In this document: positions 12,598 through 38,976 of the stretch, one piece after another
Layout: every line of letters begins with the position of its first letter
Numbering within the stretch: the first letter of the stretch is position 1
Assembly (NCBI GenBank): GCA_902765485.1
Contig: CACWZZ010000004.1
Span: forward strand, 32,461-96,460
Reading direction: 5' to 3'
Origin: an uncultured Bacteroidales bacterium
GTDB lineage: Bacteria; Bacteroidota; Bacteroidia; Bacteroidales; Paludibacteraceae
DNA: 64,000 bases
The notes under the pieces: generated by a model
What the model was told of the DNA's origin: nothing
What the model saw: only the letters and a program-made list of their open reading frames with translations
Database searches by the model: none
Program-made: the position numbers and the translations under genes

Positions 12598-13987
12598 CGA
12601 AGGATTTGTAGAACTCGGAGACGGCGACGATGCCTTTTTGCCAGACTTCGAGGTCCATGGATTCGTTGGGGGAATGGATGGCATTCTGCTCCAAGCCGAA
12701 GCCCATGAGGATCGTTTTGCAACCGAGGATCTGTTCAAAGGCGGCTATGATAGGAATAGAGCCACCGCGGCGCGCCGCAAGCGGACGTTTGCCAAAGGCA
12801 ATCTCGAAACCTTTTTCGGCTGCTTTGTACGCGGGGATGTCGATTGGGCAGACATAGCCCTGACCGCCGTGCATCGGGGTGACAGTCAATCGAACTCCGT
12901 TCGGTTTGATGGTTTGAAGATAGTTTATAAACGCTTGAGAGATTTTCTCGTGATCCTGGTTCGCCACCAGACGGCAGGAGACTTTGGCAAAAGCCTTGGA
13001 CGGCAGAACCGTTTTGGAGCCCTCGCCGGTATAACCGCCCCAGATGCCGCAGATGTCAAAAGAGGGTCTGCAGGAGTTGCGTTCGAGGGTCGAATAACCC
13101 TTTTCTCCGAAGACATCATCGACATCAATCGCGGTGTTGTATTTTTCCTGCGAGAAAGGAATCTGCGCTATCATCGCACGCTCTTCTTCGGGGATCGGCA
13201 GGACATCGTCGTAGAAGCCGGGAATCGTTATTCTACCGTCCTTATCGACGATCTGCGCAAGCATTTCACAGAGTGCATTGACGGGATTTTTGACCGCTCC
13301 GCCAAAATGTCCGGAATGGAGGTCTCTGTTCGGTCCGTCCACTTCGATCTGCCAATACGCGAGACCGCGGAGTCCGGTGGTGATCGAAGGCGTCTCTTTG
13401 CCGATCATGGAGGTGTCGGAAACGAGGATGATGTCGGCTTTGAGCAGCTCTTTGTGTTCCTCCAAGAAGGCTTCAAGCGAAGGCGAACCGATCTCTTCTT
13501 CGCCCTCAAAAATGAACTTGACGTTGCAACGGAGTTGACCGGTTTTGACCATGTATTCAAAGGCTTTGGCTTGAATCATCGCCTGGCCTTTGTCATCATC
13601 CGCTCCGCGGGCATAGAGTCGTCCGTCGCGGATAGACGGTTCCCAAGGGTCGGAGAGCCACTGGTCGAGCGGTTCGACGGGCATGACGTCGTAGTGGGCG
13701 TAAACCAAAACCGTGGGTAATTGAGAATTGAGAGTTGAGAATTGAGAATTGAGAGTTGAGAATTGAGAATTATATTCGGCATAAACGAAGGGATTGCCGG
13801 CGGAAGGGAGAACTTCCGCTTTCTGGCAGCCGGCTTCGAGGAGGAGTTCACGCCAACGCTCGGCACAACGAACCATGTCCGCTTTGTGCTCCGCCTGGCA
13901 ACTGACCGAAGGGATGCGAATGAGCGACGCCCATTCGTCCATAAACCGCTCACGATGAGCGTCTATGTAATTTTCACATTTTTCCAT
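12590..13987 (-). CDS. M20 family metallo-dipeptidase
   Basis: This 465-residue di-zinc peptidase belongs to the M20 family. The metal ligands are recognisable: YAHYDVMPV (His), GADDDKGQ (bridging Asp), the catalytic and ligand Glu pair FEGEEEIGS, and the C-terminal His in NAIHSPNE. A dimerisation/lid domain lies between about 210 and 330. The start at 13987 fits the promoter at 14016-14046. A TGAGAAT-type repeat insertion (13718-13772) encodes NSQFSTLNSQFSTLNSQ near residue 75, immediately before the first zinc-binding strand. Confidence 0.92.
   Translation of the reverse strand: MEKCENYIDAHRERFMDEWASLIRIPSVSCQAEHKADMVRCAERWRELLLEAGCQKAEVLPSAGNPFVYAEYNSQFSTLNSQFSTLNSQLPTVLVYAHYDVMPVEPLDQWLSDPWEPSIRDGRLYARGADDDKGQAMIQAKAFEYMVKTGQLRCNVKFIFEGEEEIGSPSLEAFLEEHKELLKADIILVSDTSMIGKETPSITTGLRGLAYWQIEVDGPNRDLHSGHFGGAVKNPVNALCEMLAQIVDKDGRITIPGFYDDVLPIPEEERAMIAQIPFSQEKYNTAIDVDDVFGEKGYSTLERNSCRPSFDICGIWGGYTGEGSKTVLPSKAFAKVSCRLVANQDHEKISQAFINYLQTIKPNGVRLTVTPMHGGQGYVCPIDIPAYKAAEKGFEIAFGKRPLAARRGGSIPIIAAFEQILGCKTILMGFGLEQNAIHSPNESMDLEVWQKGIVAVSEFYKSFAQ
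13718..13772. repeat. TGAGAAT/TGAGAGT heptamer repeat inside the M20 peptidase gene
   Basis: About seven units are read in frame on the minus strand, giving the heptapeptide period NSQFSTL (21 nt = three heptamers). Confidence 0.9.
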
Positions 13988-14111: not shown

Positions 14112-16979
14112 ATGATAGTGCTGCTGATGGCTATTATTTGGATGGCATCGCAAGCGGCGGAACCGACAGACAGTCTGGCGGTAGATAGTATTCAGCCGTC
14201 AGCTGTCAGCCGTCAGCCGTCAGACAGTATTCAGCCGTCAGCTGTCAGCCGTCAGCCGGCAGATAGTATTCAGCCGTCAGCTGTCAGCCATCAGCCGGCA
14301 GATAGTATTCAGCCCAAGAAAGAGAGCGAACTCAAAGCGCCGGTGCACTACCAATCGAAGGACTCGATGATTATGATGGGCAACGGAACGGCTTATCTGC
14401 ACGGACAGGGTGAGTTGAAATACGAATCGATGGAACTGACGTCCGATTTCATCCGCATGAACATCGACTCCAGCCTTATTTACGCGCACGGCGTGTATGA
14501 TACGCTTTACGAAGAATGGCGCGGCAAGCCGGTTTTCAAAGACGGCAAAGAGAGTTACGAAACGAACGAGATCACCTATAATATCAAGACGCAGAAGGGT
14601 TACATCCGGCATGTGGTGACCCAGCAGGGCGAAGGCTATATTATTGCGGACAAGACCAAGAAAATGAATGGCAACGAGATGATGTTGGGCGGCGGACAAT
14701 ACACCACTTGCGACAATCATGACCATCCGCATTTCTACATGAAGCTGACGAAAGCGAAAGTGAAACCGGGTGAGTACATTGCTGCGGGTCCGTCTTATCT
14801 GGTGGTGGGCGATGTGCCGTTGCCGATCGCGCTACCGTTCGGTTTCTTCCCCTTCACGAACAGCTATTCGAGCGGTCTGATCATGCCGAACTTCGGCGAC
14901 GACTACTCGCGCGGCTTGTATCTGCAAGGTCTGGGATACTATTTCGCGATATGCGACTACCTCGATCTGGAGGTGAAAGGCGATATCTACAGCCGCGGCA
15001 CATGGGCGGTTTCGGCGACGAGCAGATACCTGTGGAGGTACCATTTCTCGGGTAGTTTGAGTATCAATTACCGCAACGATGTGACGAGCGAACAAGGCAT
15101 GCCGGACTATTCGGCGTCAAGGAACTTCAGCGTGCAATGGAACCACAGCCAGGACTCGAAAGCGAATCCGTACAGCACTTTTTCGGCGAGCGTCAATTTC
15201 TCGACGAGCGGTTACGACCGGAGTAACATCAACAGTTATTACAACCCGAATCTCTATTCGACGAACACGAAGAGCAGTACGATCAACTACACCCAGCGTT
15301 TTCCGGACAGCCCGTGGACGCTGAGCATGAGCGCGAGTCTGACGCAACGGACGAGCGACTCGACGATCAGTCTGACCGCTCCGCAGTTCACGGTCAACAT
15401 GAGCAGCCAATACCCCTTCAAACTTTGGCGGCAGGCGACGCTCAAACGCAAAGGCAAGGTGGCAGGCAAAGAGAAATGGTACGAGAAAATCAGCATGAGC
15501 TACTCGATGAACGGAAAAATCCAAGGCAACAGCATCAAAGAGAAAGAGTTTTTCCACTCCAATTTCTTCCGCGACTGGCAGACGGGCATCAACCATTCGC
15601 TGCCGATCAAAGCGAGCTTTATGTTGTTCAAATACTTGTCCGTTTCGCCGCATATCAACCTGCGCGACAGGATGTATTTCACCCGTGTGGACCAACGATG
15701 GGACGACGAGGCGCAAGCGGTGGCAAGGGACACGACCAACGGATTTTTCAATGTGTTTGATTTCGACGTGGGACTCAGCCTGAGCACGAAGTTATACGGA
15801 TTCTACACGCCGCTGAAGAGACTTTTCCCGCACAGCAAAGTGGAGAAATTCCGCCATGTGGTGACCCCCACTCTCTCTATCTCGTACCACCCTGATTTCG
15901 GAACATCGTTCTGGGGTTACCACGGCAGTTACGAAGAGCCGATCTATGCGGGCGTGGACTCGATCACGGGGCGTAAGATACAGAAAGTGGACGACATGGG
16001 CAATCCGATTTTCCAGCACAGGGTGTATTCGGCTTATTCGCAAGGCAACGCTCCGCGAGGAATGGCAGCGACGCTCAATTTCGGCGTGGCAAACAACCTG
16101 GAGGTCAAAGTGGTGAACACCAAAGACACGACGGGCAAACAGCCGTACAAAGTGATCAGTCTGATTGATAATTTCTCGGTCAACGGCGGCTATAACTTCG
16201 CGGCGGACAGTATGAACTGGAGCAATTTCTCGGTGAACCTGCGATTGAAATTCCCGAAGCTAAACAACTACTCGCTCAACCTGAACACTTCGCTGGATCC
16301 GTATATGTACCAGTTGAACGCCGCCGGTAACCCGGTGCGCACCAACAAACAGTACTGGCACAACGGGCGCTTCCCGCACTGGAGCGGTTTCAGTTGGAAC
16401 TTCAGCTACACCTTCAACAACCAGACGCTCAAGAAATGGAAAGCGGCGATAGACAAACGGAGGGGTGAAAGAGAAGTACCAAGTGACCAAGTACCAAGTG
16501 ACCAAGGGGAGACGCTGGAGCCCATTGAGAAAGGCAGCGACGGCATGGACAAAGGTGCCAAACGGGAGAGCAAGAAAGAGTCCGAAGTGGACGACGGCTA
16601 TGTGCGGACCGAGTTCCCATGGAGCCTGTCGATCAACTATTCGCTGGCATATGCCCCCGGAAGCGAGTTCGATTACGAGAAGATGTATTACAAGATGAAA
16701 TGGCGTAACTCATTGAGCCTCAGCGGCAACATCGGACTCGGCAAGGGGTGGAAAGTGAGCGCCAACATGACGTATAATTTCGACTACATGAAGGTGACGA
16801 GTTGTACCTTCAATATCAGCCGAGACCTGCATTGCTGGAACATGACCGCCAGCATCAACCCGATCGGACCATTCAAGAGTTATACGTTCCATATCGGCGT
16901 GAATGCGTCGATCTTGAGCGACCTGAAATATGACAAAAATAGTAATCAATCAACCAATAGTAGAGTAACATGGTGGTAG
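14112..16979 (+). CDS. lptD: LPS-assembly outer membrane protein LptD
   Basis: At about 955 residues, this protein should complete LPS transport at the outer membrane. After a signal peptide (MIVLLMAIIWMASQAA) and a low-complexity tract comes the OstA-like beta-taco domain (~75-230: YLHGQGELKYESMELTSDF…), then a long beta-barrel rich in alternating aromatic strands. Start 14112 is the first ATG after the promoter. Two repeat families have expanded in frame: a 39-nt higher-order repeat giving DSIQPSAVSRQPA three times right after the signal peptide, and PSDQVPSDQ at 16475-16507. Its end overlaps slyD by 10 nt. Confidence 0.9.
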   Translation: MIVLLMAIIWMASQAAEPTDSLAVDSIQPSAVSRQPSDSIQPSAVSRQPADSIQPSAVSHQPADSIQPKKESELKAPVHYQSKDSMIMMGNGTAYLHGQGELKYESMELTSDFIRMNIDSSLIYAHGVYDTLYEEWRGKPVFKDGKESYETNEITYNIKTQKGYIRHVVTQQGEGYIIADKTKKMNGNEMMLGGGQYTTCDNHDHPHFYMKLTKAKVKPGEYIAAGPSYLVVGDVPLPIALPFGFFPFTNSYSSGLIMPNFGDDYSRGLYLQGLGYYFAICDYLDLEVKGDIYSRGTWAVSATSRYLWRYHFSGSLSINYRNDVTSEQGMPDYSASRNFSVQWNHSQDSKANPYSTFSASVNFSTSGYDRSNINSYYNPNLYSTNTKSSTINYTQRFPDSPWTLSMSASLTQRTSDSTISLTAPQFTVNMSSQYPFKLWRQATLKRKGKVAGKEKWYEKISMSYSMNGKIQGNSIKEKEFFHSNFFRDWQTGINHSLPIKASFMLFKYLSVSPHINLRDRMYFTRVDQRWDDEAQAVARDTTNGFFNVFDFDVGLSLSTKLYGFYTPLKRLFPHSKVEKFRHVVTPTLSISYHPDFGTSFWGYHGSYEEPIYAGVDSITGRKIQKVDDMGNPIFQHRVYSAYSQGNAPRGMAATLNFGVANNLEVKVVNTKDTTGKQPYKVISLIDNFSVNGGYNFAADSMNWSNFSVNLRLKFPKLNNYSLNLNTSLDPYMYQLNAAGNPVRTNKQYWHNGRFPHWSGFSWNFSYTFNNQTLKKWKAAIDKRRGEREVPSDQVPSDQGETLEPIEKGSDGMDKGAKRESKKESEVDDGYVRTEFPWSLSINYSLAYAPGSEFDYEKMYYKMKWRNSLSLSGNIGLGKGWKVSANMTYNFDYMKVTSCTFNISRDLHCWNMTASINPIGPFKSYTFHIGVNASILSDLKYDKNSNQSTNSRVTWW
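14185..14313. repeat. 39-nt higher-order repeat built from CAGCCGT heptamers in lptD
   Basis: Three near-identical 39-nt units each encode DSIQPSAVS(R/H)QP(S/A), and each contains several CAGCCGT/CAGCTGT heptamers. The tract lies between the signal peptide and the OstA domain. Confidence 0.92.
16475..16507. repeat. GTACCAAGTGACCAA repeat inside lptD
   Basis: Alternating 7- and 8-nt units, repeated twice, encode VPSDQVPSDQ in an apparent extracellular or periplasmic loop. Confidence 0.85.
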
Positions 16980-18943: not shown

Positions 18944-18945
18944 TC

Positions 18946-19021
18946 GTCAGATATCAGCCGTCAGCCATCAGCCGTCAGATATCAGCCGTCAGCCATCAGC
19001 CGTCAGCCGTCAGAGGTCAGA
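18946..19021. repeat. CAGCCGT/CAGCCAT heptamer tract between der and the FAH-like gene
   Basis: About ten heptamers with ATCAGCC/GTCAGCC variants lie in non-coding DNA, immediately before the next promoter. This is the longest non-coding tract of the family in the window. Confidence 0.9.
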
Positions 19022-28100: not shown

Positions 28101-28205
28101 TATTTAATAATTTTTTACTAAATTAATCGTTCGAGCGAAGCGAGATAAGACGTATTTGCGTCATTTTACCCCCAAAATTTATGCAAGAATAGTATGTGCA
28201 CTCTG

Positions 28206-28278
28206 TATCAAAATTTGCAAAAATCATAAATTCTTTCTGATATATTTGTATATATCAAAATTTATTACTAATTTTGCA
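28206..28278 (+). repeat. 73-bp direct repeat (copy 1) carrying a promoter
   Basis: It matches 30598-30670 with one mismatch (T/C in TTGTATAT versus TTGCATAT). It includes a -7 box TAATTTTG (28269-28276) and an upstream element at 28245, and drives the WYL gene. Confidence 0.93.
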
Positions 28279-28296
28279 AGCCAAAAGAAAAACACA

Positions 28297-29311: not shown

Positions 29312-30451
29312 ATGGCAGATATAGAGAAAATATCATCTTCTTTCCTTCCACAGGAATACCCTCATTGGCGCGACGAAATCATTTCCCTTATAGAACGTTC
29401 CAAACTGCAAGCCGTTCTCAATGTCAATAAAGAGATGCTTGCGCTCTATTGGAAGATCGGAAGTGACATTCTGCTCAAGCAAAAAGAGTTGGGATGGGGA
29501 GCACAAGTCATTAAGCAATTATCAAATGACTTACACCATCGTTTCCCAAATGATGACGGATACTCAGAGCGAAATCTGAAATACATGCGTCAATTTGCAG
29601 CAGAATATCCCGATTTCCCATTTGTGCAAGTCCCGCTTGCACAATTAGAAGGGGACGAATTTTGGCAAGTCGCGCTTGCCGAAAATGAAAACACACCAAT
29701 TTTGCAAGTGCCGCTTGCAAAATTAGAGAAAGATGGTGAAATATTTGTGCAAGTGCCGCTTGCACAAATTACTTGGTATCATCATATATCGTTACTGCCT
29801 AAGGTCAAATCGCTCCCTGAACGCGCGTTTTATATAATGGAAACAGCTGCCCAGGGATGGAGTCGCGATGTGATGTTGGCTAATGTGGCTGCCGGCTACA
29901 AGAATGCTAAAGGCAAAGCGATAACCAATTTCTGCGGCACGCTGCCTCCTGTTGATTCCGATTTTGCGCGATACGCGTTCAAAGATCCATATTCTTTTGG
30001 GTTCTTGGGCACACAAGAGTTAAAGAACGAGCGTGCTATCGAGGACAAACTGACAGAACATGTGGTTGAATTCCTAATGGAAATGGGACGCGGTTTTGCG
30101 TTTGTAGGAAGACAATATCGCATTATGGTAGATGGCGATGAATATAAGATGGATTTGTTGATGTATCATCTCAAAATGCATAGATATGTAGTTATTGAAT
30201 TAAAAGCGGTAGAGTTTATTCCCGAGTTCGTTAGTAAACTGAATTTCTATATCTCTGCCGTAGATGAATATATCAAAACACCGCAAGACAATCCCACTAT
30301 TGGTTTGCTGCTTTGTCCGACCAAAAGCAATGAGAAAGTACGGTTCTCGCTCCGTGGCTTTAGCCAACCGATGGGTGTCGCGGAATATGAGATTAAGCAA
30401 CTTATTGAAGAGGTCCAATCCGCCCTTCCTTCGATAGAAGATAAAGACTAA
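29312..30451 (+). CDS. DUF1016 (YhcG-type) PDDEXK nuclease-domain protein
   Basis: This 379-residue protein of the DUF1016 family has an N-terminal helical domain (~20-110) and a C-terminal restriction-endonuclease-like fold with YKMDLLMYH…YVVIELK, the D-(x)n-E-x-K catalytic set (~270-295). Family members occur in defence and mobile contexts and probably cut DNA. Four copies of FVQVPLAQ-type peptide lie between residues ~104 and 155 and are encoded by palindromes. It follows the WYL gene by 25 nt and is probably in the same transcript. Confidence 0.88.
   Translation: MADIEKISSSFLPQEYPHWRDEIISLIERSKLQAVLNVNKEMLALYWKIGSDILLKQKELGWGAQVIKQLSNDLHHRFPNDDGYSERNLKYMRQFAAEYPDFPFVQVPLAQLEGDEFWQVALAENENTPILQVPLAKLEKDGEIFVQVPLAQITWYHHISLLPKVKSLPERAFYIMETAAQGWSRDVMLANVAAGYKNAKGKAITNFCGTLPPVDSDFARYAFKDPYSFGFLGTQELKNERAIEDKLTEHVVEFLMEMGRGFAFVGRQYRIMVDGDEYKMDLLMYHLKMHRYVVIELKAVEFIPEFVSKLNFYISAVDEYIKTPQDNPTIGLLLCPTKSNEKVRFSLRGFSQPMGVAEYEIKQLIEEVQSALPSIEDKD
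29621..29769. repeat. Four palindromic hairpin repeats within the DUF1016 coding sequence
   Basis: Each copy reads NNGCAAG-loop5-CTTGCNN. Stems: 29622-29630/29636-29644 (TTGTGCAAG), 29661-29669/29675-29683 (GGCAAG core), 29700-29708/29714-29722 (TTTTGCAAG) and 29743-29753/29759-29769 (ATTTGTGCAAG). The arms differ between copies but remain complementary. Confidence 0.88.
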
Positions 30452-30510: not shown

Positions 30511-30571
30511 AAATAATCCAGAAAAATGTATCAAAATTCATAAATCTGCATTCAAAGTGCAGATTTTTTTT
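30511..30571 (+). terminator. Terminator-like repeat (copy 1) after DUF1016
   Basis: AAATCTGCA (30542-30550) pairs with TGCAGATTT (30558-30566) and is followed by T8. The surrounding ~60 nt recur at 31170-31229. Confidence 0.8.
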
Positions 30572-30597
30572 GTATGAAGATCCTCTGCCCGTCTCTC

Positions 30598-30670
30598 TAT
30601 CAAAATTTGCAAAAATCATAAATTCTTTCTGATATATTTGCATATATCAAAATTTATTACTAATTTTGCA
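30598..30670 (+). repeat. 73-bp direct repeat (copy 2) carrying a promoter
   Basis: The second copy of the repeat at 28206-28278. Its TAATTTTG (30661-30668) starts transcription of the nucleotidyltransferase gene. Confidence 0.93.
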
Positions 30671-30683
30671 GCGCAAAATCATT

Positions 30684-31074: not shown

Positions 31075-31270
31075 TCCCCGTCACTTACTGACGTGAAACA
31101 GGAGTGCTGACACTGACAGCGTAAAAAAGCGGTGACATAAACAAGATATAAACAATGTAGTACTTTTGTAAATAATCCGGAAAGTGTATCAAAATTTATA
31201 AATCTGCATTCAATGTGCAGATTTTTTTGTCTATTGTCTTACTACTTTTGTCTAAAAATCTTTGATTATA
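31075..31270. other. Short gene-free interval
   Basis: No gene is seen between the HEPN remnant and the caspase promoter. It contains only the second terminator-like repeat (31170-31229). Confidence 0.6.
31170..31229 (+). terminator. Terminator-like repeat (copy 2)
   Basis: AAATCTGCA (31200-31208) and TGCAGATTT (31216-31224) plus T-run. It is homologous to 30511-30571, including the flanking AAATAATCC…GTATCAAAATT words. Confidence 0.8.
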
Positions 31271-31302
31271 TTTGCATATGTCAGAAAAAAGTTGTACCTT
31301 TG
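31271..31302 (+). promoter_or_regulatory. Promoter of the caspase-sigma operon
   Basis: TTGCAT at 31272 and TACCTTTG at 31295, spacer with AGAAAAAAG. Confidence 0.88.
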
Positions 31303-31356
31303 CACGCAAATGGCAAAAGAGATAGGTTTTAAGATTCTAAACTTTTAGCATCGGTC

Positions 31357-32262
31357 ATGCAATTATCCAAATTTTGTTTACATATTTTTGTTTTGGGTAT
31401 TATATTGATGAGTAATAGCCTATTTGCCTTTTCTGAATCCAGAGCACTACTAGTTGGTATTTCGCAGTATTCAAAATATAAAAATAGTCAATGGAATGAT
31501 ATCAATGGAGCTAACGATATTCGGATTCTCAAAACGATTATGCAATCAAAGGGGTTTTCTATTGACACGCTTGTTAATGCAACTGCGACAGCGGCTAATA
31601 TTCGTCAAGCATTTGAAACGTTAACCATGACTTGCAAGCCTAATGATACTATTTATATCCATTTATCAGGTCATGGACAACCGTATGAAGATATAAATGG
31701 AGACGAACAAGACGGATGGGATGAGTCCTTTGTTCCTATTGATGCTTCGATGTACTATCGCAAAGGTATTTACGAAGGAGACAAACACATTTTAGATGAT
31801 GAGTTAAATGCATTCTTTAACAAGATAAGAGAGAAAATCGGACAAAAAGGCATGTTATTGGTTGTGATAGATGCTTGTCATTCGGGAACAATGTCGCGGG
31901 AAGAAAATGATGCACCTTTTGATGATGATGCACCTGTGCGAGGAACTTATATTGGATTTTCAGAAGACAAGATCTTCCGTCCTATCCGAGAACAAGAAAC
32001 ATCATACCATTATGTGTTGCAATCAAACAAAAACATGTCTCCGATTATCGTTCTCGAAGCCTGTCAAGCGTGGCAACAAAACACAGAAGTGCAGATTGAT
32101 GGAATATATTATGGTCCATTGAGTTATGCATTATATAAGGAACTCAAAAATAAGTCTTTCAAACAAGTGATACAAAATATCAATGCGGTGGGAGAAACCA
32201 TGCAACGTGTATTACCTAATTGGAGAAAGCAACATATTGTAGTAGAAACAAGCATAAAATGA
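31357..32262 (+). CDS. Exported caspase-family (C14) cysteine protease
   Basis: The 301-residue protein has an N-terminal signal peptide (FCLHIFVLGIILMSNSLFAFS) and one caspase-fold domain. The catalytic dyad is visible: His106 in YIHLSGHGQ and Cys174 in VIDACHSGT. A Ca2+-type acidic stretch DINGDEQDGWDE lies between them. It is probably periplasmic or outer-membrane facing. Its TGA overlaps the ATG of the sigma-factor gene, so protease and sigma are made together. It is the first gene of the caspase/sigma/anti-sigma/CHAT cluster. Confidence 0.9.
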   Translation: MQLSKFCLHIFVLGIILMSNSLFAFSESRALLVGISQYSKYKNSQWNDINGANDIRILKTIMQSKGFSIDTLVNATATAANIRQAFETLTMTCKPNDTIYIHLSGHGQPYEDINGDEQDGWDESFVPIDASMYYRKGIYEGDKHILDDELNAFFNKIREKIGQKGMLLVVIDACHSGTMSREENDAPFDDDAPVRGTYIGFSEDKIFRPIREQETSYHYVLQSNKNMSPIIVLEACQAWQQNTEVQIDGIYYGPLSYALYKELKNKSFKQVIQNINAVGETMQRVLPNWRKQHIVVETSIK

Positions 32263-32867
32263 AACTTAATTCAATCCATAGTATAACATCTTCCGAGCTT
32301 AATGCTTTCTTTGAAGAAAATAGACAACGGACATTATGCTATCTTGAATCACGTTTCCCTGTATTGCAGGAAGATGATATTGAGGATATATTTCAGGATT
32401 CCTCAATAGCCCTTTTTCTCAAAATACAGAATAACGAATTATTGGATTTGACCAGTTCATTATATACTTTTTTCCTCTCAATCTGTATCAATCAAGCACG
32501 CAATAAAGTAAATCGTACTCATCCGACCTATTTGTTATCGGATAATATAACCGATTCGGACTTTGAGCCTATTCGAAACGACAAACTGGAAGAGTTGGAA
32601 AATTTAGTTGGTTATGATATAGCGGAAGAACAAACAAATCAAGAATATCTTAATTGGATAGAACAACAAGTCCGGGAAGGAGTGCGACAGATGAAACCTC
32701 CTTGCAATCAAATCCTTTGGAGTTTCTATTGGGATGGTTTAAGCCATCGGACTATAGCGGATATGTTTGGTATGAAGAGCGAAGATGTAAGCAAAACACA
32801 AGCCAATAGATGCAAACATAAGTTTAGTGATTTTATAAAGAAAGTGATAGCGTCCTATGAAAGATAA
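32259..32867 (+). CDS. ECF-type RNA polymerase sigma factor
   Basis: The 202-residue sigma-70-family protein has region 2 at ~35-90 (LQEDDIEDIFQDSSIALFLKI, the acidic core-binding helix) and region 4 at ~145-200 (MKPPCNQILWSFYWDGLSHRTIADMFGMKSEDV, a helix-turn-helix). Start 32259 overlaps the caspase stop (ATGA). It is followed with an 11-nt overlap by a single-span membrane protein, the layout of sigma/anti-sigma pairs. Region 4 is slightly atypical but complete. Confidence 0.88.
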   Translation: MKLNSIHSITSSELNAFFEENRQRTLCYLESRFPVLQEDDIEDIFQDSSIALFLKIQNNELLDLTSSLYTFFLSICINQARNKVNRTHPTYLLSDNITDSDFEPIRNDKLEELENLVGYDIAEEQTNQEYLNWIEQQVREGVRQMKPPCNQILWSFYWDGLSHRTIADMFGMKSEDVSKTQANRCKHKFSDFIKKVIASYER

Positions 32868-33543
32868 TAACATATATAATGAGCAAATAGACCGATTTCT
32901 CAAGGGACAGATGTCCACAGAGGAAGAACAGCAGTTCAAGACGGAGATAGGACAGAATCCGGAATTGAAGCAGCAAGTGCGTGAGCATTTGTATCTTATT
33001 CGTGGTATCAAGCAAGTTAAGAGTCAAGAAGAGAAGAGTCTTATTCAAAACAACCAACATGCTCAAAAAATCATTCCACTTAGACGAAATTGGATTAGAA
33101 TTACCGGTATTGCCGCATCTATAGCTGTTATAATGGTTCTTACCGGCATTGAAGGAAGTCGTCTCTATTACCAACACGAGATACGTCAATTTGCTTATAA
33201 CGCATCGGTTGGTGTAATGACTGATTTTGCAGCAGCATCACGCGGTACAATGGACGAAGAAACAAAGGCTCGTCTTACCGATTTATTTACAAATGCCCAA
33301 GAAGGAAAAGATTTGCCGGAAACTATTGCAGAATTATCCCAATTATATGCTTTGACGAAGAATGACTATGTAGAAATAGAGGATGATTATGCATATCAAA
33401 TAGGTTGGTTTCTCGCTGTAGCATACATAAACAATAGAGATTATGAAAAATCCTTAGATATAATTAGAACTTTAGACAGTGAATATCCTGATAATGAAGA
33501 TATTAAAAGCATTCAAAAACAACTAGTTAAATTTTTGAAATAA
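32857..33543 (+). CDS. Single-pass membrane protein, putative anti-sigma factor
   Basis: The 228-residue protein has a cytoplasmic ~78-residue N-terminus (IDRFLKGQMSTEEEQQFKTEIGQNPELKQQVREH, like Bacteroidetes anti-sigma N-termini), one membrane helix (~80-98, ITGIAASIAVIMVLTG) and a ~130-residue exterior domain of helices resembling a TPR (WFLAVAYINNRDYEKSLDIIRTL). It overlaps the sigma gene by 11 nt. The anti-sigma role is inferred from position and topology, since no named anti-sigma motif was identified. Confidence 0.72.
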   Translation: MKDNNIYNEQIDRFLKGQMSTEEEQQFKTEIGQNPELKQQVREHLYLIRGIKQVKSQEEKSLIQNNQHAQKIIPLRRNWIRITGIAASIAVIMVLTGIEGSRLYYQHEIRQFAYNASVGVMTDFAAASRGTMDEETKARLTDLFTNAQEGKDLPETIAELSQLYALTKNDYVEIEDDYAYQIGWFLAVAYINNRDYEKSLDIIRTLDSEYPDNEDIKSIQKQLVKFLK

Positions 33544-33587
33544 GCAATAAACTAGTGAAAATTTTTGTATTTTTTTTGTATCTGAAA

Positions 33588-33620
33588 ATTTCCATATATA
33601 AATAAAAAGTTGTAATTTTG
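33588..33620 (+). promoter_or_regulatory. Promoter of the small-ORF/CHAT operon
   Basis: TAATTTTG at 33613-33620, with a weaker upstream element (TTCCATATATA). It suggests the CHAT gene has its own transcript. Confidence 0.65.
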
Positions 33621-33661
33621 CACCGTTTTTTATTTTTCAAAAACTCAAAATTAAAATAAGT

Positions 33662-33979
33662 ATGATTACAAAAATTTATTTCGAATATATCGGGACATCA
33701 CATTACGATGTTAATGGTGTTTTAATAAATACAACATATCATTTTGTTGCCTATCCAGCAGAGCAGACTGATGGTATCATTGGGAATAACTTAAATATGC
33801 GCCTTTCTAATCAAGAAGGAACTAAGACCAAAAAAATGATTGAAAACCAGATTACGTGGGCTTTTGAAGATTATGGTAGAAAAGTGCAATCTATAACTTT
33901 TGATGACAAATATAAAGGTTGTGAGTATAATACCTTAATCCATTCCGACTTTACTTGTATAATAGACTATACATACTAA
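33662..33979 (+). CDS. Hypothetical protein, 105 residues, in the CHAT operon
   Basis: Not recognised. It is a soluble-looking protein with beta-rich character (KIYFEYIGTSHYDVNGVLINTTYHFVAYP), no signal peptide and no membrane segment. It starts about 40 nt after a promoter and overlaps the CHAT gene by 25 nt, so the two are translationally coupled. It could be a substrate, activator or inhibitor of the CHAT protease. Confidence 0.6.
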   Translation: MITKIYFEYIGTSHYDVNGVLINTTYHFVAYPAEQTDGIIGNNLNMRLSNQEGTKTKKMIENQITWAFEDYGRKVQSITFDDKYKGCEYNTLIHSDFTCIIDYTY

Positions 33980-36762
33980 AAATACCAATAAGAAGAATAT
34001 TTCTATTGCTACTTTACTGCGCATTACCATTTTCATGGCTATGTGCTAATTCTTTGTCTCATTATAAAAAAATAATTGAACAATCAGAAAGATTATATGG
34101 AGAGGGCGATATTTATTCTTGCTTAAGAATATCAGAAAATGCGCTTTCTGAGTTAAGAAAATCTGCCGACACCATATCTAATACATACGTGCGCTTACTG
34201 CACAACAGTTCTATTTGTCACTATAAGTTAAAGCAATACGAATTTGCTTTAAATGAAATACAACGTTGCAATTCCATTAGGCAACTCATTTTAAAGCCGA
34301 CCGATGAAAGATATATACATAGTTTATTGGTAGAAGCAGAGATTTTATCAAGAATAAATAGAATTAACCAACGTGATAGCCTATTAAATTTAATTTTAGA
34401 AAGGACTTACAATATTCCTCGACTTTATTATTGGATTAAGGCAAAACAAGTGTATTTGTTATATAAGAACAACGAATTTGGAGAAGCAATATTCTATGGT
34501 GTAGAGGCAATTCTTAATTATCAAAAGCAAATATCATTAGCCAAATCTAAAAATGAGGTTAAAAAATATTCTGAAATACTATCAGATGATATATTGGATA
34601 TAAATATTACTATAGCTAATAGTTACGATAAAATAGGGGATTTTACAAATGCAATTAAATGGACTAATCAAGTTGTGGAATATAAACAAAATACTCTTCA
34701 TATGTCGGATGTTGATTGTCTAACGGAATATCACAATCTTGCACAATTTTATAATTCTATAGGCAATTGTGAGATTGCCAAAAATTATGGAGCGTATGTC
34801 ATTAGCGAGAGACAAAAGCGAAGAAATGCTGAATACGCAAGAACTTCTCATGTATTAGCATCTATATATGCTCATTGTGGAAAAATGGATACTGCAATAT
34901 ACTATGCTCAATCCTCTTTGAACGTAAAGGAAAAAGTAATTGGCAAAGATACATATAGTTATACGCAGACATTAAGCAATCTTGCTATATATTATGCAGC
35001 AATCGGAGATTATAGCAAGGCATTAACTCATTCTAAAGAAGCATACTCATACTTGAAAAATAATAAATTTCAATATGCAGTAGAGCTACAACATATTGCA
35101 TCAATTTATAACAGATTAGACTGCGATTCCGCAGTTTTTTATAGAAAGATGTGTGCAAATGCGTTTCGTGTAGAGACCTTTAAAGCATTACATAATTTAA
35201 CATATAAGCAACGTCAAACATATATAATGAATTTGCAACCAAGAATAAGAACATTGATTTGGTATCCACAAAATGAGTATATAAACAGCAAAGAATATAA
35301 TAGGACTTCATATGACATTGCTATACTATTAAATAGTGCATGTGTCGGTATAGAAAATAAATTAGCAGAATTTATCAAACATAACAAAGATTCTGCCCAA
35401 TTAGCAAAATACAACAAATGGAAAACTATGCAACAATTATCATCTTCCCCCGTTGATGAATATAGGATTGATTTATTTGAGCACGAATTACTTAATTTGC
35501 TTCAACAAGAGAAAAACGATCATCTCACTTATATAAATATAACACATGAACTAGTTAAACATAATTTGAAACAAGATGAAATAGGAGTTGAAATTACATA
35601 TGGCGATATTGATACTACATACATCGCTCTCATTCTCCGCAAGGACTGGGATGCTCCGAAATGTGTGATCTTAGGTAGCGAAGCAGAGTTAGACTCTATG
35701 TCATACCCCAAATTACAGCAAGCCGTTTGGCAGGCTATTATTGATTCGGCTCAAATTAAAGAAGGAGAGAATATTTATTTTTCTCCGGATGGTATCTTCT
35801 ATAATATGCCTATTGAGTATCTACCAACGGCTGACGGACGAAACATGTCAGACAAATACAATATGTTCCGCGTATCATCCACGCGTGAGTTATGTTATCG
35901 GGACACGGCAAATACATATTCTACAGCTGTATTGTATGGTGGTCTTAAATATGATGCAACACCACAAAAACTAATAGCACAAAATTCTTCAACAAGAGGA
36001 TGGGAAGAGAGTATCCATGAATCTGTTTTATCCCAATGGCGCGCAGATGATAGAGCCAAATACAATTATTTGCCCTATACACTCATGGAAGTGGATTCTA
36101 TTTCGCAGACTATTGGAAATGCTATACAAGTCACGACTTATACGGACAAAGAAGGAAGTGAAGAATCTTTCAAATCACTATCAGGTCATTCTCCATCTAT
36201 CTTGCACATAGCTACTCATGGCTACTACATCACTCCGACTAAAGCAGAAATGATGTCAAAGGAAAATTTGTATCGTTATGGTCTAACCGCTATGGATGAT
36301 AGACCAAGCGTCATAGATTATTCCATGGAGCGGACAGGTTTGCTTATGGCAGGAGCACAACACACATTGCGGGGCGACTCTATTTTACAAGCAGCAGAAG
36401 ATGGTATCTTGTCTGCCAAAGAAATCAGTCATTTAGATTTGAGCAATACTGATTTGGTGGTTTTGTCTGCATGCCAAACGGCACTTGGTGATATAACGAA
36501 TGACGGCGTTGCCGGATTGCAACGTGGTTTCAAGATTGCCGGAGTCAAGTCTGTTTTGATGAGCCTTTGGAAAGTGGATGATGCCGCTACCTATTTATTG
36601 ATGAAACAATTCTATAAATCGTTATTTGCTGGAAAAAACAAACAGCAAGCATTGAGAGATGCGCAGAATTATCTACGTTCATACATGGTCGGTAATGAAC
36701 GTCCATATAACGATATTCATTATTGGGGCGCATTTATATTATTAGACGCCATAGAAAATTAG
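33955..36762 (+). CDS. Exported TPR-CHAT protease
   Basis: The 935-residue protein starts at a TTG codon inside the preceding gene. It has a hydrophobic export signal (FLLLLYCALPFSWLCANS, ~16-33), tetratricopeptide repeats (~35-440, e.g. YHNLAQFYNSIGNCEIAKNY, TLSNLAIYYAAIGDYSKAL) and a C-terminal CHAT caspase-like domain (~600-935). The catalytic pair is His755 (HIATHG) and Cys840 (LSACQTALGD). CHAT proteins are separase/caspase-clan proteases; one paired with CRISPR III-E cleaves an inhibitor of an ECF sigma factor. Here an ECF sigma and a membrane anti-sigma-like protein lie just upstream. Confidence 0.92.
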   Translation: MYNRLYILKIPIRRIFLLLLYCALPFSWLCANSLSHYKKIIEQSERLYGEGDIYSCLRISENALSELRKSADTISNTYVRLLHNSSICHYKLKQYEFALNEIQRCNSIRQLILKPTDERYIHSLLVEAEILSRINRINQRDSLLNLILERTYNIPRLYYWIKAKQVYLLYKNNEFGEAIFYGVEAILNYQKQISLAKSKNEVKKYSEILSDDILDINITIANSYDKIGDFTNAIKWTNQVVEYKQNTLHMSDVDCLTEYHNLAQFYNSIGNCEIAKNYGAYVISERQKRRNAEYARTSHVLASIYAHCGKMDTAIYYAQSSLNVKEKVIGKDTYSYTQTLSNLAIYYAAIGDYSKALTHSKEAYSYLKNNKFQYAVELQHIASIYNRLDCDSAVFYRKMCANAFRVETFKALHNLTYKQRQTYIMNLQPRIRTLIWYPQNEYINSKEYNRTSYDIAILLNSACVGIENKLAEFIKHNKDSAQLAKYNKWKTMQQLSSSPVDEYRIDLFEHELLNLLQQEKNDHLTYINITHELVKHNLKQDEIGVEITYGDIDTTYIALILRKDWDAPKCVILGSEAELDSMSYPKLQQAVWQAIIDSAQIKEGENIYFSPDGIFYNMPIEYLPTADGRNMSDKYNMFRVSSTRELCYRDTANTYSTAVLYGGLKYDATPQKLIAQNSSTRGWEESIHESVLSQWRADDRAKYNYLPYTLMEVDSISQTIGNAIQVTTYTDKEGSEESFKSLSGHSPSILHIATHGYYITPTKAEMMSKENLYRYGLTAMDDRPSVIDYSMERTGLLMAGAQHTLRGDSILQAAEDGILSAKEISHLDLSNTDLVVLSACQTALGDITNDGVAGLQRGFKIAGVKSVLMSLWKVDDAATYLLMKQFYKSLFAGKNKQQALRDAQNYLRSYMVGNERPYNDIHYWGAFILLDAIEN

Positions 36763-36824: not shown

Positions 36825-36915
36825 GTTTACCTTTATGGTTGTAATGTTATAGAAGAGTGTAAGGCTCCAAAAACTTACGCAACAAATAGTGTATAACATT
36901 AAAATCATAATCCGT

Positions 36916-38976
36916 ATGGAAACAGCAACTATTAAAAAACTCAATGAAGAACAACAAGTAGCATTTGATCTTGTTCGGGATACAAACCGCAGTTTCTTCC
37001 TTACAGGAAAAGCCGGAACTGGTAAGACTACTTTTGTCAAGTATATTCAGGAGACTCTGACAGACAAACGTTTTGTAATAGTAGCTCCAACCGGTTTGGC
37101 TGCTATTACCGCCGGAGGACAGACTATCCATTCTTTCTTTGGATTGCCTCTTGATCCTATTGCGCCCGATGCAGAATTTGAAATGTTTAATATCAATTAT
37201 GAGAAGCAATGCCTTCTTCAGAAAGTAGATACTATCATTATGGATGAGGTATCAATGGTTAAATGTGATATTGTAGATGCTATCGATTCTATTTTGCGGC
37301 ATGTTATGAAGAACTCAATGCCTTTCGGCGGAAAACAAGTCATCTTTATTGGTGACTTGTACCAATTGGATCCTATTGTAGATACTAATGATGAAGGGTT
37401 GAGAAAATTTTACCATCACTATTACAATACAACCATTCCTTATTTCTTTAAAGCCAGGGTATTTCAATCATATTTATTGCCGTCTATTGAGTTTTCCAAG
37501 GTTTATCGTCAGAAAGACAAGGAATTTCTGCAAATGCTTGAGCATATACGCATCGGGAAATATGTAAAGGAAGAAATTGATAAAATAAATATATCAAGTA
37601 TGGGAAATTTATTAATAGAAGGTCTCGATACAAAAGAAAATAAAGATTTGGTACTCACTCCGTTTAACAAGAAAGCCGACAATATCAATTACATTGAGTT
37701 GGAAAAAATCCCGAATCAGTCATACACGTATATTGGAAAACTTGAAGGGGATTTTAACCGAAAGAATTTCCCGGCTCCTTATGAACTGACATTGAAAGAA
37801 GGCGCACAGGTGATGTTCTGTCGTAATGATGCAAACCATCAATGGGTAAATGGGACATTAGGTGTTGTCTCTTCGTTGTCCGAAAATTCTGTATCAGTCA
37901 TGGTAGATGGAGAGGATATTGAAGTGGCAAAAGAAACATGGGAGGCTGTAAAGTATGTCTTTAATGAGGAAACGCAAAAATTGGATAAAGAAGTTATAGG
38001 TACATATACCCAATACCCCTTGAAACTGGCTTGGGCTATTACTATTCATAAAAGCCAAGGTCTGACATTTGACCATGTGACATTGGATCCTAATGGAATA
38101 TTTTCACCGGGTCAGTTATATGTGGCGTTGAGTAGAGTTCGTTCATTGGAAGGGTTAACACTTGTTAACCGTGTTTACCGGAATTATATTTATGTGAAAC
38201 AAGACATAAATACATTTATGATGCAATACAGCAATTTGAGTGCTATTCAAAATGACATTATTCTGCAAAAGTCTGTTACCGAGGCAATTACAAAGTACGA
38301 TTATGATGCAGCGGCTTCTTATCTGTTGAGACAAGTTCTTTCGGCGGTCAATGATAGCAACATTGATAAAGCATGGCATGGCGCTTGTCAGATGATGTCC
38401 GTGTTGTACAATCTTGATACTTTCTCAATGCAGGAAACTACAGAATGGTTGTCCGGAGATGATGAGAAAACGTTATTTCTCAATACTATTATAGCCATCT
38501 GCAATCGGAAATATGACTTTGCTATTGCGCTGGCGGAAAGAGGTTGCAATCTTAATATTAACTCTGATTTTGATTATCTTAAATGTATCGCTTTGTTTAT
38601 GAATAGCAACTATGATGAAGCTGAACTTGCATTGACAGAGTGGAAGAATAAACTGAAAGAACACAACAGAGTATTGGATGACAGATACTATTATCTATTA
38701 GCTTGGATCAATAAGAAACAGGGAAAACCATACATATCTGCTACTCAGCATGTAATCCGTCATACTCCTCGTTATATAGCACCTCTGCTTTTCTTGAAGG
38801 AAAGCATGAATGAAGCCGGGCTTATACTGGAAACTGGAGATGATAACTCACGTTTGGTCGATGCGTTTAATCAATCAGCCACAAGTCAAGAGTTCCAAAA
38901 CGCATGGAAAGATGCTACTTCCGAAGAACGTGCAACTCTAATTCTTGCTGTTTTAGATTATCCTTATGAACAATAA
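36916..38976 (+). CDS. PIF1/RecD-like DNA helicase with helical C-terminus
   Basis: The 686-residue superfamily 1 helicase has Walker A GKAGTGKT (31-38), Walker B IIMDEVSMV, the GD-Q motif FIGDLYQLDPI, and the late motifs TIHKSQGLTFDHV and YVALSRVRS, as in the PIF1/RecD2 group. Residues ~400-686 are a helical, TPR-like extension of unknown role. It is separated from the CHAT gene by a terminator, so it is probably not in the same transcript. Start 36916 (METATIKK) is taken as the first sensible ATG. Similar helicases are frequent in defence islands. Confidence 0.9.
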   Translation: METATIKKLNEEQQVAFDLVRDTNRSFFLTGKAGTGKTTFVKYIQETLTDKRFVIVAPTGLAAITAGGQTIHSFFGLPLDPIAPDAEFEMFNINYEKQCLLQKVDTIIMDEVSMVKCDIVDAIDSILRHVMKNSMPFGGKQVIFIGDLYQLDPIVDTNDEGLRKFYHHYYNTTIPYFFKARVFQSYLLPSIEFSKVYRQKDKEFLQMLEHIRIGKYVKEEIDKINISSMGNLLIEGLDTKENKDLVLTPFNKKADNINYIELEKIPNQSYTYIGKLEGDFNRKNFPAPYELTLKEGAQVMFCRNDANHQWVNGTLGVVSSLSENSVSVMVDGEDIEVAKETWEAVKYVFNEETQKLDKEVIGTYTQYPLKLAWAITIHKSQGLTFDHVTLDPNGIFSPGQLYVALSRVRSLEGLTLVNRVYRNYIYVKQDINTFMMQYSNLSAIQNDIILQKSVTEAITKYDYDAAASYLLRQVLSAVNDSNIDKAWHGACQMMSVLYNLDTFSMQETTEWLSGDDEKTLFLNTIIAICNRKYDFAIALAERGCNLNINSDFDYLKCIALFMNSNYDEAELALTEWKNKLKEHNRVLDDRYYYLLAWINKKQGKPYISATQHVIRHTPRYIAPLLFLKESMNEAGLILETGDDNSRLVDAFNQSATSQEFQNAWKDATSEERATLILAVLDYPYEQ

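Follow-up and report, generated by a model that had tools for sequence, protein, structure and literature searches.

The 64,000 nucleotides analysed here (hereafter the window; positions 32,461 to 96,460 of contig CACWZZ010000004.1, assembly GCA_902765485.1) come from an uncultured Bacteroidales bacterium of the Paludibacteraceae and carry, on the forward strand, a five-gene locus in which two caspase-clan proteases flank a sigma factor and a membrane protein resembling anti-sigma factors. The first gene (31357-32262), preceded by a promoter-like element of the TTTG...TAnnTTTG type (31271-31304, beginning where the original prediction set the start of the locus; motif search allowing ≤3 mismatches), encodes a metacaspase-type caspase of 301 residues (PF00656) with predicted export and a His106/Cys174 dyad. 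It is coupled through ATGA to the gene of an extracytoplasmic function (ECF) sigma factor (32259-32867; TIGR02937), the frame of which overlaps by 11 nt that of ANTI (32857-33543), a single-pass, anti-sigma-like protein predicted to comprise an N-terminal cytoplasmic domain, a transmembrane segment (residues 82-99, 33100-33153, mean hydropathy 1.97) and a periplasmic domain resembling tetratricopeptide repeats (TPR). After a gap that contains a second promoter-like element (33589-33622, 2 mismatches) come the gene of a 105-aa protein without family match (33662-33979) and, overlapping it by 25 nt, that of a TPR-CHAT protease (33955-36762, TTG start, His755/Cys840, export predicted), the protease domain of which spans residues 587-929 (35713-36741). 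As judged from the motif, these last two genes have a promoter-like element of their own. The original prediction had described the five genes, their place, the ATGA coupling and the 11-nt overlap in the same way, and reading frames and family matches confirm it.

The loci of related caspases were surveyed with a profile (A4) built from sigma-adjacent caspases, and the counts describe that subfamily. Among the best 80 of 317 relatives, the sigma factor was found within 8 kb in 56 loci, ANTI in 58, CHAT in 61 and all four genes in 51; in 48 loci, the genes of caspase, sigma factor and ANTI follow one another in this order on a single strand. Fifteen of the 80 show none of the three partners, several of them on contigs ending close by. 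A sigma-anchored survey (30 places in 24 of 101 related genomes; 28 stretches with wider flanks) revealed the caspase, ANTI or CHAT beside the sigma factor in many of the 28 stretches. In a genus sample, the caspase occurs in 25 of 151 genomes (E 1e-20), and a CHAT gene lies within ~8 kb of 19 of 27 caspase genes, as counted by eye. The five-gene order is repeated in the two nearest relatives, L063, whose contig ends within CHAT, and L064; this repetition and the four-gene set in 51 of the 80 loci show that the locus is more than a chance assembly. The co-occurrence of all five genes, put forward as a check in the original prediction, is therefore borne out for four of them only, since homologues of the 105-aa gene were found in L063 and L064 alone among the loci compared. 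The caspase, sigma factor, ANTI and CHAT genes are a real Bacteroidales module, and the 105-aa gene is local. The module is present in many Bacteroidales, with frequent rumen and gut records; the named strains Bacteroides oleiciplenus YIT 12058 and Parabacteroides distasonis NM39_I3 are among them.

At the scale of the order, 198 genomes were considered (ANTI at E 1e-12, CHAT at E 1e-10, caspase at E 1e-40; genome lists compiled by hand from search tables), of which 67 contain ANTI, 104 CHAT and 18 the caspase. CHAT is found in 65 of the 67 ANTI-bearing genomes, as opposed to 39 of the 131 others (Fisher p 5e-22), whereas no association between ANTI and the caspase was found in this set (6/67 vs 12/131, p 1.0); caspase and CHAT are weakly associated (15/18 vs 89/180, p 0.006). 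Thus, the view of caspase and CHAT as an inseparable pair is not supported. In 40 order-wide ANTI loci, retrieved out of a longer list and including the short contigs L181, L184 and L199, the sigma factor is in view in 35, CHAT in 22 and the caspase in 2; the caspase is also seen in only 2 of the 22 loci that show CHAT. Because ANTI follows CHAT and not the caspase across the order, the core of the module looks like sigma–ANTI–TPR-CHAT, with the caspase apparently added to it in certain lineages.

A finding that was lacking from the original prediction and is new here is that caspase, sigma factor and ANTI form one unit of inheritance, next to which different TPR-CHAT alleles replace one another. 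Between the window and L063 / L064, the caspase is 98 / 96% and the sigma factor 98 / 99% identical. Identity in ANTI is 85 / 84% over the first 100 residues and 75 / 47% over the last 68; it is 29 / 26% in the 105-aa protein, 27 / 28% in the TPR part of CHAT and 93 / 96% in the CHAT protease domain (only 129 residues in L063, where the contig ends). DNA similarity to the window ends at 33444 (L064) or 33547 (L063) and returns at 35619, which delimits an exchanged stretch (33445-35618) made of the end of ANTI, the 105-aa gene and the TPR part of CHAT.

The same picture is obtained from pairwise identities in 48 sets, namely the window and 47 of the 80 loci. Four loci were skipped though all genes are present (L095, L099 and L106, truncated CHAT; L134, short ANTI), and in a further 29 not every gene was in view; L140 duplicates the L218 locus and L110 the L037 locus. 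Identities of the caspase, the sigma factor and the two ANTI parts correlate with one another (Pearson 0.73-0.91, Spearman 0.41-0.64), the caspase reaching a Pearson value of 0.91 with the sigma factor and 0.84 with the periplasmic part of ANTI; the values against the CHAT parts are 0.25-0.44 and 0.08-0.16. In 58 locus pairs with sigma factors >60% identical, the CHAT protease domains are <50% identical in 35 and >60% in 23. Moreover, 12 of the 15 closest pairs (sigma >85%) have TPR parts <50% identical, and 11 of these 12 keep matching DNA on both sides, the pair L123-L141 doing so on the left side only. Some exchanges span the whole CHAT gene; the protease domain stays in the window compared with L063/L064 and in L082-L087. 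It should be noted that these counts use locus pairs, which are non-independent, and that many loci come from metagenome assemblies, where a chimera could look like a swap. Such an origin is, however, countered by the recurrence of swaps across many assemblies and by the fact that the exchanged genes are open frames.

The site is marked by a PIF1-like helicase gene (36889-38976), a neighbour outside the switch that lies downstream of the module in the window and in several relatives. Beside such helicases (≤3 kb, same strand), 14 CHAT entries from 13 loci fall into 8 groups at 50% identity; the helicases vary widely across the 13 loci, and the same site is proven only for close pairs. L074, L077 and L080 have helicases 91-94% identical and CHATs 27-28% identical, whereas L074 and L079 have CHATs 98% identical and helicases 80% identical. 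This contrast indicates exchange, not drift. The cassettes also carry cargo genes: AbiH (L080, L086), SIR2-like (L096, L111), trypsin-like (L123, L124), DUF3800 (L077), DUF2971 (L065), extra TPR proteins (L065, L070, L091) and PADLOC candidate families. The AbiH-family genes (phage abortive infection) lie directly 3' of two CHAT alleles of different groups (L080 14553-15491; L086 14661-15566). In L123 and L124 the trypsin-like protease gene (Pfam) is near sigma–ANTI, and in L141 a gene of equal length occupies that position, so that the switch may receive input from a further protease in these three loci.

Family matches support the assignment of both proteases. The caspase scores 61.9 bits against PF00656 (cut-off 21.4), and metacaspases are the top solved chains matched, the closest being Metacaspase-1 (4f6o, E 1.1e-14); the C14 match and the His/Cys dyad make it a metacaspase-type C14 protein. 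Asp54 (47/48, one gap) and Asp172 (48/48), which we take to be S1 pocket residues, are conserved. The other protease, with a CHAT domain (PF12770, 183.1 bits, cut-off 24), a His/Cys dyad and TPRs (TPR_12, 65.7 bits), is a TPR-CHAT protein; the SAVED domain was not found in it, its Pfam matches up to E 1 being CHAT, TPR-type and RPN7 only. Both dyads stand where they had been predicted and are conserved over the 48 rows (caspase His 47/48 with one gap, Cys 48/48; CHAT His and Cys 47/48 each, one gap). CHAT Asp876 is conserved as well (47/48, one gap) and might correspond to the separase P1 Asp; sequence search with the CHAT protease domain reached neither separase nor Csx29. A simple hydropathy rule calls signal-like N-termini in 41 of the 48 caspases and 43 of the 48 CHATs, compared with 0/48 sigma factors and 3/48 ANTI proteins, in keeping with the export signals that the original prediction had assigned to both proteases. 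A phage or plasmid origin, tested with the caspase, was rejected: no phage record was found at E 1e-10, and two partial plasmid matches at E 1e-15 are <37% identical. A second locus in the window's genome (L061, G000:C5:45000-62000) encodes a further caspase of 555 aa together with two CHATs, with no match to the sigma model.

The sigma factor matches the sigma70-ECF model TIGR02937 at 48.1 bits (cut-off 42.9), a model that matches 22/22 members of sigma set A1 at E 0.001. The parallel first drawn with CRISPR type III-E systems would hold for the similar logic of the triad, but the kinship of the sigma factor is weak. The III-E CASP-sigma family NF041236 is the second-best model, at 32.2 bits for a cut-off of 100, level with the general Bacteroidetes model TIGR02985 (32.0), and is absent from the 25 families most A1 members match; a specific kinship was therefore discarded. 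For the window's ANTI, no family match exceeds its cut-off (NF052375, E 0.052, far below cut-off). Nevertheless, this NCBIfam anti-sigma model matches 15 of 42 aligned ANTI members at E 0.01 (best E 5.7e-6), and in the outer part TPR_19 is matched by 9 of 20 members at E 0.01; matches to solved TPR chains were also obtained. Positive charge is greater before than after the membrane segment in 47 of 48 sequences, so that, by the positive-inside rule, the N-terminus of ANTI would be inside and the TPR-like part outside. This reverses the orientation first proposed, with the anti-sigma domain outward; the exported proteases could then meet only the outer part. The pairing of ANTI with the sigma factor stands: ANTI is a sigma-adjacent single-pass protein with its N-terminus predicted inside, and in another Bacteroidales family homologues of the two are fused in one open frame of 448 aa (L051 3146-4492). 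The window's genome also encodes an RseP-family site-2 protease (TIGR00054 over cut-off, G000:C2).

Two columns of the 48 ANTI outer parts share the highest conservation: one is a Trp, the other a basic residue that is Arg in 47 sequences and Lys in 1. The basic residue is located 22-30 residues past the membrane segment, between the membrane helix and the TPR-like domain, and is followed by Gly in 41 sequences, Ser in 5, Asp in 1 and Ala in 1; in the window it is Arg129, and Arg129-Gly130 (33241-33246) is the candidate cleavage site. With the 40 order-wide sequences added, the column contains 84 R and 1 K out of 88, and on inspection the three sequences that deviate (L187, L200, L211) carry an Arg in the adjacent position, which corresponds to an alignment shift. 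A loose-pattern Arg count (40/40 order loci) was set aside in favour of the aligned column, because the pattern is likely to occur by chance. According to the parts of the cited papers drawn on here, the P1 residue is Arg/Lys for metacaspases and Arg for separase (PMC4357240), to which CHAT is similar (PMC9729208). For these reasons, the basic residue is a natural candidate for the cut site, a lead and not a result.

With moderate confidence, we propose that the module forms a protease-gated sigma switch that spans the membrane and has an exchangeable sensor. At rest, ANTI would hold the ECF sigma factor at the inner face of the membrane, as suggested by its position, coupling and topology, the family match of its homologues and the natural sigma–ANTI fusion. 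The exported TPR-CHAT may be regarded as the sensor protease, because it has a variable TPR part, whereas its dyad and the other members of the circuit are conserved. It would sense a periplasmic stimulus via this fast-changing part and then cleave ANTI at the invariant basic residue, either itself or through activation of the exported caspase in loci that have one; the RseP-family protease would finish sigma release. The swapping of TPR-CHAT alleles and cargo, with caspase–sigma–ANTI kept, could let one output meet different inputs.

If so, the module would work like RseA/DegS, Craspase and CalpL/T/S, systems compared here from parts of their published accounts. As in RseA/DegS/RseP, there is a membrane protein, here a putative anti-sigma factor, a first cut proposed to be outside and an available site-2 protease (PMC10028731; PMC10202637); here, however, the first cutter would be a module-encoded, swappable caspase-clan cysteine protease. 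The type III-E CASP/Craspase system (Csx29, Csx30, CASP-sigma) likewise encodes together a TPR-CHAT protease, an ECF-sigma inhibitor and the sigma factor (PMC10028731). The present module differs by export-type signals on the proteases, a putative inhibitor that is a membrane protein with a TPR-like outer part, a basic residue in place of the Csx30 site, an added caspase and exchanged CHAT alleles. In addition, Cas1 was not found in the window's genome (82.8% complete), in which Cas7-11 was not searched for, and no Rfam match was obtained in the window at gathering threshold, no dedicated CRISPR-array search having been run; the description of the locus as being without CRISPR holds to that extent. 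A triad of protease, anti-sigma and ECF sigma factor released by cleavage, as proposed here, is shared with CalpL/CalpT/CalpS, whose protease is Lon-type with a SAVED sensor for cyclic tetra-adenylate (PMC11417357). In the SAVED-CHAT cascade a CHAT protease also feeds a proteolytic cascade, as it may here, but the sensor is SAVED with a cyclic nucleotide instead of TPR and export signals (PMC11229360). The negative searches for Cas1 and SAVED, together with the sigma score far below the III-E cut-off, set the module apart from both type III-E and SAVED-CHAT systems. CHAT genes are found beside ECF sigma factors in ECF54, which is proposed to act without an anti-sigma factor (PMC8999054), and caspase loci with an ECF sigma factor in EACC2, the account of which, in the part drawn on, leaves a membrane anti-sigma factor unmentioned (PMC8195603). 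In an open-access literature search, with subscription papers and preprints outside its scope, no paper was found that describes either a caspase–sigma–anti-sigma–CHAT module in Bacteroidales or CHAT exchange within it.

Several observations weigh against the proposed switch. A sigma-specific promoter was sought and not found in the window: the type of the element at 31271-31304 occurs there in 9 copies at ≤3 mismatches (mean 0 in shuffles) and is a common promoter type, presumably a housekeeping one. Another candidate, TTG-N17-24-TAnnTTT, was dropped, as it lies upstream of 11 of 57 caspases vs 6% of shuffles and says nothing about the sigma factor. Co-variation of the periplasmic part of ANTI with CHAT beyond shared ancestry was not found (partial r -0.02 with the TPR part, p 0.70; 0.01 with the protease domain, p 0.44), and small partial correlations appear instead with the cytoplasmic parts (sigma–TPR 0.10, p 0.001; ANTI N-part–TPR 0.08, p 0.008; sigma–protease domain 0.10, p 0.031), which the switch does not predict. 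The last 35 residues of ANTI do show an effect (Mann-Whitney p 0.046, without correction and on pairs that are not independent), which fits the exchange breakpoint located in them. The basic residue is equally conserved in loci without CHAT in view (16 of 18 aligned, 2 shifted by one), and may thus be structural. Finally, in the parts of the III-E studies considered, TPR-CHAT cuts not after Arg but after L407 (PMC9729208) or at aa 427-429 (PMC10028731), and has another residue in place of the Asp by which separase recognises Arg (PMC9729208).

These points leave room for other explanations. It is rather unlikely, though conceivable, that sigma–ANTI senses stress itself and turns on the caspase and TPR-CHAT as periplasmic effectors of killing or defence, CHAT diversity then reflecting an effector arms race. 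CHAT is directly 3' of ANTI on the same strand in many loci, the cassettes carry AbiH, SIR2-like and PADLOC candidate families, and defence-type genes (WYL, YhcG) adjoin the window's module, all of which would suit effectors. Nevertheless, the window promoters are of a type common there and not evidently sigma-specific, the basic residue is kept in the periplasmic linker of ANTI, and published CHAT and Lon systems, in the parts cited, put the protease upstream of the anti-sigma factor (PMC10028731; PMC11417357).

The inheritance of the caspase with sigma–ANTI, while CHAT is swapped, would also suit a cascade in which CHAT never touches ANTI but activates the caspase, which alone cuts it; we consider this quite unlikely. 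A precedent is reportedly provided by a type III-B system, in which SAVED-CHAT leads to a PCaspase step. The acceptance of Arg/Lys by metacaspases, in the part of the account used, matches the 47 R and 1 K (PMC4357240). However, CHAT is seen in 22 and the caspase in 2 of the order-wide ANTI loci, and the lack of a genome-level ANTI–caspase association means that CHAT would there act without a caspase. That the proteases and sigma–ANTI merely share a recombination hotspot without joint function is very improbable: although the helicase-side stretch also takes unrelated cargo, and four further genomes with a helicase 45-49% identical to the window's lack the module in the stretch viewed (in two of them only ~4 kb upstream), ANTI and CHAT co-occur order-wide in other families and caspase, sigma factor and ANTI are ordered on one strand in 48 of the 80 loci.

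The protease-gated switch can be carried further, in a tentative form that is possible but doubtful. The locus would then be a bacterial polymorphic-receptor locus, in which allelic periplasmic TPR-CHAT sensors pass between strains in cassettes that often bring along a partner or defence gene. Through cleavage at the single invariant basic residue, each would connect to a caspase–sigma–anti-sigma output that stays constant. Separase- and metacaspase-type proteases would thereby support a modular, immune-like or recognition signalling, and CRISPR III-E would represent one offshoot of it in the cytoplasm.

The surroundings of the module are rich in repeats. An 86-nt direct repeat (94%, promoter-like core; 28201-28286 and 30593-30678) brackets most of the genes of the WYL regulator and of the YhcG/DUF1016 nuclease, and a 48-nt repeat (94%; 30523-30570 and 31181-31228) flanks a nucleotidyltransferase gene just upstream of the module. 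In view of these flanking repeats, the stretch upstream of the module may consist of exchangeable units. Within the nuclease gene (29620-29767), a 25-nt repeat is present four times, 39 to 45 nt apart, and encodes VQVPLAQ-like peptides. Arrays of 7-nt units (AATTGAG, TCAGCCG) recur in the window, for instance at 13719-13771, 14179-14314 and 18945-19021.

In the literature compared, CHAT–sigma circuits are CRISPR-linked; the module described here occurs in many Bacteroidales and is, as far as tested, free of CRISPR. What is exchanged in this circuit is the protease, and this would account for the wiring of a single transcription switch to many inputs. The module may show the origin of Craspase-like outputs, and it offers a testable cut site.

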